Origin: Acidimicrobiaceae bacterium
Lineage (GTDB): Bacteria > Actinomycetota > Acidimicrobiia > Acidimicrobiales > RAAP-2
Length of the DNA stretch: 54,875 nucleotides
Assembly (NCBI GenBank): GCA_027306525.1
Contig: DAHUZM010000105.1
Location: forward strand, 1 to 54,875
Direction: 5' to 3'
The notes under the pieces are model-generated. The model did no database searches. It had not been told where the DNA came from and worked only from the letters and a program-made list of their open reading frames with translations. This document shows positions 23,446-27,523 of the stretch, one piece after another. Both the position numbers and the translations under genes were made by a program. How positions within the stretch are numbered: position 1 is the first letter of the stretch; the number at the start of each line of letters is the position of its first letter.

Positions 23446-24666
23446 TCAGCCGGTGAGCTGGCGGCGGCGGTAGCGCAGCTCGGAGACCGTGTCGGCCAGC
23501 ACCTTCCCCTTGAAAGGCAGGCGGCCTTGTTCGAGCTCGGCGCAGAGATTCGCTGTGCCCGACAGCACCTGATCGAGAACCCGTAGCGCCGTCTTCTCGG
23601 GCAGATCGATGGCAACGGCGAAGTCGAGAAGACATTTCCGGGAGATGCCCTGGCGCTTCCCTGCGAGCGGCAACGCCAGAGTCCGGTCGTTGTAGAAGGC
23701 GGTGGACGGTAAGTCGTAGGCGGGCGACACTTTCCATTCTCCGTCGCGACTCCGTAGTACCGAGACGTTCTTGGCGTGAACATCCCCGTTCCCGGTCACC
23801 CAGGCGAACACCAGCTGCCGGTAAACGTCTCGGCGGGCCACAGCGCGCGCTGGGCACAGCTCTGCCACGCGAGTCACGACCTGCTCGGAGCTGATGTTGT
23901 ACTTGTCGGCGGGCCACAGGCCAAGCAGCTGGCAGGCGTCCTCGCACGCCAAAGCCACTGTCGTACCGTCCTCGCCTGAGATCCGGTCGAAACGACGGAC
24001 CAGCAACCCGGGCCGGCCGTCACGGTCGCGGACCAGCTGAGCGTCGGCCACTGGCATCTTCAGTTGCTTCGCCAGGTCCAGGAAGTACGCCTCGTTCTCC
24101 ACCACGTGGGGGTATTCGGGTGGGTCGATCTTCAAGATCCACCGATCCGTCGCCCGGCCAACCGGCACCGAGATCATCCGGGCCGACACCTTGTCCTGCA
24201 CTCCCGGGATAGCCACCGGATCCACCATTCCCGCCTCGGCCAAGAGATCTGAGAACAACACCTCCTCGAAAGAATGCTCTACCGACACCAGCGGCTCTGC
24301 GGGGGATGGCACAAGCCCCTCCGGCACAATCTGTACGTCGCCTACCGGGTCACGCCCGACCGCCAGTAGTAACGAAAGCTCATCGTCGGCCGAAGTCTTG
24401 ACCGCCCGGCGCAGGCTGGACAGGCGGCGGCCTTCGGGCAAAAGCCCGGCGAAAAATGGTGGCACGGCACCGGCCGGGGTGACCAGTCCGTCCACATCGA
24501 ACCCGAGGCTGGTGGCCACCGGCGGCCTGCCCGATGCCACGTATTCCGGCAGATAAGCGAACTCGACGCCGGCATTGGTGCGGCGCAGCCTGGCGGCCAG
24601 GTATCCGGCCTTGTACACGTCCGCGACTACGACCGAGCGGATCGCGGACAGCTCCGGGCCAGTCAC
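23446..24666 (-). CDS. hipA: HipA-like serine/threonine kinase toxin
   Basis: GVQDKVSARMI, LLVRRFDR, WVTGNGDVHAKNVSVL, VSPAYDLPST catalytic motifs; overlaps hipB. Confidence 0.93.
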   Translation of the reverse strand: MTGPELSAIRSVVVADVYKAGYLAARLRRTNAGVEFAYLPEYVASGRPPVATSLGFDVDGLVTPAGAVPPFFAGLLPEGRRLSSLRRAVKTSADDELSLLLAVGRDPVGDVQIVPEGLVPSPAEPLVSVEHSFEEVLFSDLLAEAGMVDPVAIPGVQDKVSARMISVPVGRATDRWILKIDPPEYPHVVENEAYFLDLAKQLKMPVADAQLVRDRDGRPGLLVRRFDRISGEDGTTVALACEDACQLLGLWPADKYNISSEQVVTRVAELCPARAVARRDVYRQLVFAWVTGNGDVHAKNVSVLRSRDGEWKVSPAYDLPSTAFYNDRTLALPLAGKRQGISRKCLLDFAVAIDLPEKTALRVLDQVLSGTANLCAELEQGRLPFKGKVLADTVSELRYRRRQLTG

Positions 24667-24869
24667 GGCTGGCGGACCTTCACCACCACCTCGAGACCGA
24701 GGGTGTCCAGCACATCGAAGACCTTGTCGAGCCGGGCCGAGACCTTGCCGTGTTCGAGAGCGCGCAGGAAGCGCACCGACACCCCGGCCAGTTCGGCTAG
24801 CTCCTCCTGGCCGAGGCGCAGCGCCTTGCGGCGGTTCTCGATTGTCGTTCCCAACTCCGTGGCGTTCAT
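24663..24869 (-). CDS. hipB: HipB-like HTH antitoxin
   Basis: MNATELGTTIENRRKALRLGQEELAELAGVSVRFLRALEHGKVSARLDKVFDVLDTLGLEVVV. Confidence 0.92.
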   Translation of the reverse strand: MNATELGTTIENRRKALRLGQEELAELAGVSVRFLRALEHGKVSARLDKVFDVLDTLGLEVVVKVRQP

Positions 24870-24882
24870 TGGTGAACTCCCG

Positions 24883-25083
24883 AAGCGGCACGATCGTGCC
24901 GCTTCATTCAGGATAGCGCAGACCGGCGCCCACACACGGAGTAAATCGGCACGACCGTGCCGCTCTAGCCTTTCCAGTGGTGCTGCAAGGCGTCTTCTCG
25001 CCAAAAAGGGCAAGATCGTGCCGATTTTCGCCGCTCAGCAGTTCGGGGAAGCCCCAGCAACGCGAACCGGCAAGATCGTGCCG
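24883..25083. promoter_or_regulatory. Array of four palindromic operator candidates upstream of hipBA
   Basis: Cores at 24886-24901 (CGGCACGATCGTGCCG, inside 22-bp perfect palindrome AAGCGGCACGATCGTGCCGCTT at 24883-24904), 24947-24962 (CGGCACGACCGTGCCG), 25008-25023 (GGGCAAGATCGTGCCG), 25068-25083 (CGGCAAGATCGTGCCG); centre spacing 61/61/60 bp. Confidence 0.85.
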
Positions 25084-25151: not shown

Positions 25152-25585
25152 TCAGCGCCAACTCATACTGCCCCACTCCGCCGGATCGGCAGGAGGGACC
25201 TGGCCTTCAGAAAGGTCTGCAAACCCCAGAAGGAACAGCCCGTAATCGCGGGCAGTCGTGATGAGCGGCCGGTAGCCGTGCAGACCCTCTTCCGGCTCGT
25301 CCAGCCGGGTGTCAGTCATCCCGATCGGGGAGAACACGAGCTCTCGAGCGAGGTCGGTGATGGGCCGGCCAGCCTGGGCCTCGATGGCTTCCTGGAGCAG
25401 GACGAAGCCCTCTCCCGAATATCCCCACTGCTGGCCCGGAGGTCGGATCGGCCTGAGGTCTTCACCTTCCGGGCGCCAGTTGGGCAACCCGGTCGTGTGC
25501 GAGAGGGCGTGGCGGGCGGTGATCCCGCTCCAGAGGGGCTCATCGAGATCGGCCAGCACGGTCAGGGCCAGATGTCCCACGGCAC
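25152..25585 (-). pseudogene. Truncated beta-lactamase-family serine hydrolase fragment
   Basis: LDEPLWSGITARHALSHTTGLPNWRPEG...QWGYSGEGFVLLQEAIEAQAGRPITDLARELVFSPIGMTDT; N-terminal part replaced by istB sequence. Confidence 0.75.
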
Positions 25586-25993
25586 CGCCTTGCCCTGTTC
25601 GCAGGCTGCCATGCCGAGGCCGATGAGCAGGTGGCTCTTGCCGATCCCACTGTCGCCCAAGAACACGATCGGATCGCCGCTGGCCAGGTAGCTGCCCGAA
25701 GCCAGCATGGCGATGGTGGCCGGGTTCACACTCGGGGCGGCGGCCAGATCGAAGTCAGCCAGTCGTTTGACGCGAGGGAAACGGGCCTCATGGACCCGAC
25801 GCTGGCGACGGCGCTCGGCCCGTTCGTCGACTTCGGCCGAGAGCGTCTCGGCCAAGAACCCCAGATACGTGGTCTGCGAGCGCTGGGCCACCTCGGCCAA
25901 GCGCACGCACTCGGCGCGCACCGTCGGTAGGTGCAGCTCCCTGGTGGAGGCCCCGATGGACGCCTGGGCGGCGGTGTCGGTCATCTTGGCCAT
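25580..25993 (-). pseudogene. istB: istB helper ATPase, truncated after Walker A region
   Basis: TYLGFLAETLSAEVDERAERRRQRRVHEARFPRVKRLADFDLAAAPSVNPATIAMLASGSYLASGDPIVFLGDSGIGKSHLLIGLGMAACEQGKAV then switches to unrelated sequence. Confidence 0.85.
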
Positions 25994-27523
25994 CAGCCGA
26001 CGTCCAGAAGTCCGTCATAACCGCTCAATGTCGGCGCCGGACGGTCGAAGGCAGCCAACGACTCGCTGATGACGGCCACCGGTTCGGTTCGCCCGAGGGA
26101 ACGCCGGGCTTCGACTGCCACCACGTCGGGGTCGAGCGATCCGACCTCGATGGCTCGTTCGAGACCCGAGACGACAGCGTCGTTGGGCATCGCGCGGTGC
26201 AACAACAGCACGGCGATCATGGCCCTGGTTCCCGCTCCATCGCCGTGGGCCCGACGAGCCAAGTCCCAGAAGCGTTGATGGGCGGAGCTGAAGGCACCGC
26301 TGCGTCGGGCCGCCACCAGCGCGCTGACTCCGGCCAGAGCGCCGGGCTCGAGGGAGAGGACCTCGAGATAGTGGTCGAGGTCGAGGACCTCTGCTCCTTT
26401 GCCCTGGGCCCGTTGGTGGCGGGCCACAACCGTGCTGCTGTCGAGCGCACTGACGTGGTCGGCACCGAGGAGGACGTCGATGCGGCGTCCGGCATAGCGC
26501 ACCGGCACCGAATAGACACACTGCCGCACGCAGATCCTGCTCTTGGTGTCGACCCGACAGTTGAGAGCGAGTGCCACGTCGAAGGGCTCGTCGGGCAACG
26601 AGGACAACAGGGCCTGTTCGGCTGAGAAGTGCTTGGCCACACTCAAACGGCGTCCTTCGATGTGGCGACGGTCGTCACGCTCGTCACCGGCGGCCACGAG
26701 CTCGTTGAGCTCGGCCATCGAAGACACATCGGGCACCGGGACCATATGACGTCGGCGGAACCGTCCCACCTCTCCTTCGACATCGCCCTTCTCGTGGGCA
26801 CCTTTGACGCCAGGCAGGCAGAAGAAGGACTCGAAGCCGTAGTGGCTGCGCATGGCGATGAAGCGCTCGGTCTCGATGCGGCCCCGTCCCTTCATGACCC
26901 GCACCACCGCCGGCTTGAGGTTGTCATAGCGGATGCGTCGAGGCACCCCACCGAAGTGGGAGAAGGCAAGACGTGACCGTCGCGGAAGACCTCTTGGGCC
27001 TGGTTGAAGTAGACCCGGTGGAACCCCTTGCCCGAGGCCGAGAGCCGCATGACGAACATCCAGGCAGGGACCAAGGCACCGTCGAGGGAGAAGTGGACCT
27101 GGCCGAAGTCGACCTCGGCCTCGTCGCCCAACGGGTGGGCCTGGGGCACGCAGACGTCGGGCAATGAGAGCGAACGCTGCTTCTTGCGCGAGCCGATGTA
27201 GCGGCGCACCGTCGACTCGCTGATGTCGGCGTCGTGCTCATCGACCAGGCGTTCGAAAATCCGCCGTGCCGTGTGACGTTGCTTCTTCGGCACCGCCTCG
27301 TCGGCCGCCAGCCAGGTATCGATGGTCGCTTTCCACGGCCCGAGCGACGGAGAGGATCGCTCTTTCAATTCCTCGGCGGAGGCACGGCCGATTCGAGCGC
27401 CTGGCGCACCGTCCTTCGGTGCACTTTGAAGCGGCGGGATCACTCCCGCACGGAGGGATCGTCCCTACCTGCTTGCGCCTTGCGGATCTCCTCGAACAGC
27501 TCCACTTTCGACCTCGTCGCCAT
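25993..27523 (-). pseudogene. istA: istA transposase disrupted by in-frame stops and frameshifts
   Basis: Frame fragments MATRSKVELFEEIRKAQAGRDDPSVRE*SRRFKVHRRTVRQALESAVPPPRN*, ...SLGPWKATIDTWLAADEAVPKKQRHTARRIFERLVDEH...DFGQVHFSLDGALVPAW..., and AFSHFGGVPRRIRYDNLKPAVVRVMKGRGR... in different frames. Confidence 0.85.

Follow-up and report, generated by a model that had tools for sequence, protein, structure and literature searches.

Work by Black in 1994 and by Schumacher in 2009/2015 is reported, as cited in PMC3376134, to have placed four operators of the form TATCCN8GGATA in the hipBA promoter of Escherichia coli K-12. The four E. coli operators are bound cooperatively by HipB, and binding of HipBA bends an E. 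coli operator by 70 degrees (PMC3376134). In Legionella the hipBST promoter has three evenly spaced operators, i.e., 18-nt sites with 53-bp gaps, each of which is bound by HipB (PMC10653801). The Caulobacter promoters of hipBA1 and hipBA2 carry three palindromic sites each (PMC8545095), at intervals called consistent with the higher-order complex of E. coli (PMC7029023); no general spacing rule is given in these descriptions. Multi-operator hipBA promoters are already known, and the case for HipBA as a higher-order promoter complex has so far rested mainly on E. coli.

The window, i.e., the whole stretch of 54,875 nucleotides analysed here, comes from an Acidimicrobiaceae bacterium. Its hipBA locus resembles that of E. 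coli K-12 in having four palindromic sites upstream of hipB, but the operators differ in sequence, with a specific CGATCG-like centre, and in their spacing of 60–61 bp. The literature searched gave no description of an operator set for this actinobacterial Y4mF/HipA branch. To our knowledge the operator sequence, the 60–71 bp spacing in hipBA and the stepwise spacing series described below are new within that literature.

The hipBA locus and its four palindromes

An HTH antitoxin gene lies directly upstream of a HipA-family kinase gene and overlaps it (the GTG start of hipA overlaps the TGA stop of hipB), which is the arrangement of a type II hipBA module. HipB scores 73.6 bits against TIGR03070, where the cut-off is 71.65 bits, and HipA also exceeds the cut-off of TIGR03071, so that the pair falls in the group of Y4mF-family antitoxins with HipA. 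The window HipB is shorter than E. coli HipB with its 88 residues (W88, 16-residue C-terminal tail; PMC3376134). The region contains:

23446–24666, minus strand: hipA, HipA-family Ser/Thr kinase toxin (HipA_C 8.9e-45, Couple_hipA 3.4e-17)
24663–24869, minus strand: hipB, 68-aa HTH antitoxin of the Y4mF family (TIGR03070 above cut-off; HTH_3)
24882–24905, no strand: O1, hipB-proximal operator, perfect 24-bp palindrome GAAGCGGCACGATCGTGCCGCTTC (16-bp core 24886–24901), centre 24893.5
24910–24915, minus strand: probable -10 element TATCCT, 19 bp upstream of the O1 centre, with no convincing -35
24947–24962, no strand: O2, operator CGGCACGACCGTGCCG, centre 24954.5, 61 bp from O1
25008–25023, no strand: O3, operator GGGCAAGATCGTGCCG, centre 25015.5, 61 bp from O2
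25068–25083, no strand: O4, operator CGGCAAGATCGTGCCG, centre 25075.5, 60 bp from O3

The original prediction of four near-identical palindromes upstream of hipBA, spaced 61/61/60 bp, was confirmed at these centres. The motif proposed for them, CGGCA(C/A)GA(T/C)CGTGCCG, describes the four sites except that the third copy starts GGGCA and has one mismatch. The hipB-proximal copy had been taken for a 22-bp palindrome 14 bp upstream of the ATG, whereas it is a perfect palindrome of 24 bp that ends 12 bp before the start codon (24867–24869). With up to one mismatch allowed, the motif is matched seven times in the window, counting both strands, and every match is one of O1–O4, while shuffles lead one to expect 0.03. 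In the bacterium's own genome (190 contigs, 2.9 Mb, 89% complete) the exact 16-mer CGGCACGATCGTGCCG occurs at O1 alone. A dispersed genome-wide repeat was rejected as the looser GGCANGANCNTGCC forms outside O1–O4 are isolated and mostly asymmetric. The locus has the several palindromic sites, upstream of hipB and specific to it, that are expected of multi-operator autoregulation by HipB. O1–O4 do not match TATCCN8GGATA, a consensus that reflects the E. coli protein's own specificity and is not general to HipB operators.

The spacers between the sites are unique, as had been claimed, with 30–41% identity and alignment scores that differ from those of shuffles by no more than about 1.2 sd. This bears on the idea that the array is the relic of a tandem duplication of a 61-bp unit and that its even spacing is a matter of history and not of function. 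Such an origin would explain why the motifs of an array are nearly identical and equally spaced, but it leaves a significant similarity between spacers to be expected where none is found, and in relatives whose HipA is only about 45–60% identical to that of the window the spacing stays within about 1 bp or moves by about a turn. We regard a mere relic as highly improbable, and the dissimilar spacers led us to reject it as a sufficient cause.

Spacing of palindromes in related promoters

Relatives were gathered by searches with TIGR03070 and with a HipA alignment, plus plasmid and viral records, the viral collection yielding few (7 loci). In a first survey of 116 distinct hipB-hipA upstream regions a strongly paired repeated dyad, i.e., one with at least six conserved dyad pairs, was found in 75 (65%), compared with 5 of 319 control segments drawn from the same loci. 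A separate pair test found any pair in 80 real loci versus about 0.6 loci per shuffled set; the repeated dyad was absent in eleven scanned loci. Most of the relatives' promoters have two to four evenly spaced palindromes, the arm sequence of which varies between lineages, and comparison of upstream regions thus did reveal a conserved spacing. An exact search for this motif pair, run over 397 genomes from the phylum, returned six places. Three are palindromic, all beside hipBA and all 61 bp apart, i.e., the window and, in a single relative, one pair upstream of hipB and one downstream of hipA; the other three were judged by eye to be repetitive or non-palindromic. The second 61-bp-spaced pair of this relative (L038/L193), just downstream of hipA (G051:C6:75636-75712), is the only case of such sites downstream of hipA among 76 loci checked.

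Good adjacent spacings fall into five classes in 161 of 167 cases, with means of 27.2, 38.8, 49.6, 60.6, and 71.3 bp and hence a step of about 11 bp. With each HipB cluster (50% identity) contributing one value for every spacing group, the best-fitting period was 11.1 bp (R 0.67), and 0 of 20,000 null draws were as high (p<5e-5). A second test on the quality spacings gave a period of 11.0 bp (bootstrap 10.8–11.2) and an offset of 0.52 turn, which becomes 0.73 turn if 10.5 bp is taken as the pitch; it groups values by nearest class before averaging and so slightly favours the series, which the cluster-collapsed test avoids. The E. coli operator spacings, re-measured as 28/39/28, are members of the same stepwise series. 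The Legionella hipBST sites, about 71 bp apart from centre to centre, also fit it, although that system is tripartite, has another operator sequence and has been suggested to work by intermediate occupancy instead of cooperativity (PMC10653801).

Of 80 comparisons between spacings of the same array, 64 agree to within 1 bp and 9 differ by 9–11 bp. In mixed arrays a difference of 9–11 bp is frequent, examples being those of E. coli (28/39/28), Devosia (40/50) and the relative L031 (42/31/42). On the HipA tree the members of the 71-bp class make up a single clade with full support, which the drawing places inside the 60-bp group; a shift of roughly one turn would fit this. Off-series spacings of 31, 42, 54, and 66 bp also occur, some of which are doubles or weak sites, and those of 54 and 66 bp are single cases. 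Three loci of one hipB group (L031, L033, L158) have spacings of 31/41/42 bp, which are out of the main phase and internally one turn apart; in this group the HipA genes are, at least partly, split.

The spacing had been interpreted as about six helical turns with all sites on the same face. This is not supported, as a pitch of 10.5 bp makes 5.8 turns of 60.5 bp and as spacings that follow 27 + 11n bp leave neighbouring dyads offset by about 0.5 turn if the pitch is 11.0, or 0.73 turn if it is 10.5, and not by whole turns. With a dyad offset of a half to three-quarter turn, strict same-face spacing at 10.5 bp/turn was rejected. It is conceivable that a single rule, 27 + 11n bp (n = 0 to 4), governs the spacing in hipBA-type promoters of different phyla. 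On this view HipBA complexes form a regular nucleoprotein array with helical phasing, and spacings evolve for the most part in whole turns as operator and recognition helix drift together; we give this generalization an even chance. Arrays in several phyla that differ mainly by one-turn steps suggest that bound repressor complexes need a fixed mutual orientation. Since such steps occur in separate lineages, the higher-order model can be put to the test through evolutionary comparison and with simple insertion mutants.

Candidate reader, promoter and mode of repression

In what follows E is the conserved glutamate of LE(H/x)GK in HipB, and operator positions are numbered from the dyad axis. Arginine at E-6 goes with G at operator position 6 in 37 of 37 cases, and its absence with absence of that G in 6 of 6. 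Arginine at E-3 goes with G at position 7 in 27 of 29 cases, compared with 3 of 14 for other residues (Fisher 4e-6, the counts being inflated by related sequences). A tree-corrected test of co-variation rests on three supported independent pairs, i.e., too few independent changes, and part of the association between helix and operator may therefore be shared ancestry. The variation of operator letters with recognition-helix residues points to HipB as the reader. It is also hard to reconcile with palindromes that serve another regulator which controls hipBA as well, and so is the finding that palindromic motif pairs in the 397 genomes occur only beside hipBA; we give such a regulator very little credence. 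The proposal that these are operators of the locus' own HipB or HipBA, with a recognition sequence unlike that of E. coli, is supported as a prediction from sequence. The findings also suggest a code that links the HipB recognition helix to the operator, from which one could predict regulons as well as cross-talk among copies of hipBA.

The -10-like TATCCT that had been noted beside the proximal site is present on the minus strand, and relatives have such an element at the same position. A consensus scan of the window promoter yields no sigma-70-type site, and a good -35 is absent. Among 43 relatives' loci with distinct helices and 58–74 bp spacing, promoter-like sequence is enriched in the O2–O1 interval (z about 7), with the -10 commonest around 20 or 32 bp upstream of the centre of O1, and the O3–O2 interval of the same relatives has no such enrichment. 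In relatives with 60–71 bp spacing the predicted core promoter thus tends to fall between O2 and O1, the sites nearest hipB. This location is what one would expect if RNA polymerase alone set the spacing, O2 and O1 bracketing a promoter of fixed size and HipB dimers acting independently. O3–O2 and O4–O3 are, however, equally spaced, yet O3–O2 is without promoter-like signal, and other lineages have 27, 39, or 50 bp with steps still about 11. We consider it unlikely that polymerase is the sole determinant.

Autorepression of hipBA by HipB or HipBA through a helically phased operator array is the best reading of the sequence, and we are fairly confident of it. A HipB dimer, alone or complexed with HipA, would bind each palindrome through its recognition helix. 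Filling of O2 and O1 should block RNA polymerase as these sites tend to bracket the core promoter in the 60–71 bp relatives, and O3 and O4 would lengthen the array upstream. The fixed helical phase of neighbouring sites (28, 39, 50, 61, 71 bp) is most simply explained by contact or co-bending in one orientation, i.e., bound complexes may touch each other or bend the DNA together and be functional in one relative orientation only, and autorepression would thereby become cooperative and switch-like. Binding, repression and inter-site contact are all steps that we infer. Contact over about 40 bp would need DNA bending or looping. Cooperative binding or looping at O1–O4 is plausible, and on contact between neighbouring HipBA complexes our judgement is evenly divided.

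HipA and flanking DNA

In the window HipA, D295, N300, and D318 align with the catalytic and metal-binding motifs of E. coli HipA, and the ILK lysine (K179) is present. The P-loop serine that is autophosphorylated in E. coli HipA (ISVAGAQEK) is replaced by alanine, with the catalytic residues retained; the same position is alanine or glycine in all four relatives aligned with the window HipA. The KVSA serine near the P-loop is conserved in an alignment of seven HipA rows. Upstream of the operators, positions 25152–26946 contain a beta-lactamase-like fragment and partial IS21 istB and istA genes, which indicates that the region was struck by an insertion element. Elsewhere in the same genome (G000:C100:9201-10135) a second HipB-like HTH precedes a HipA-like stretch that contains two stop codons, and the two are probably what is left of another hipBA copy.
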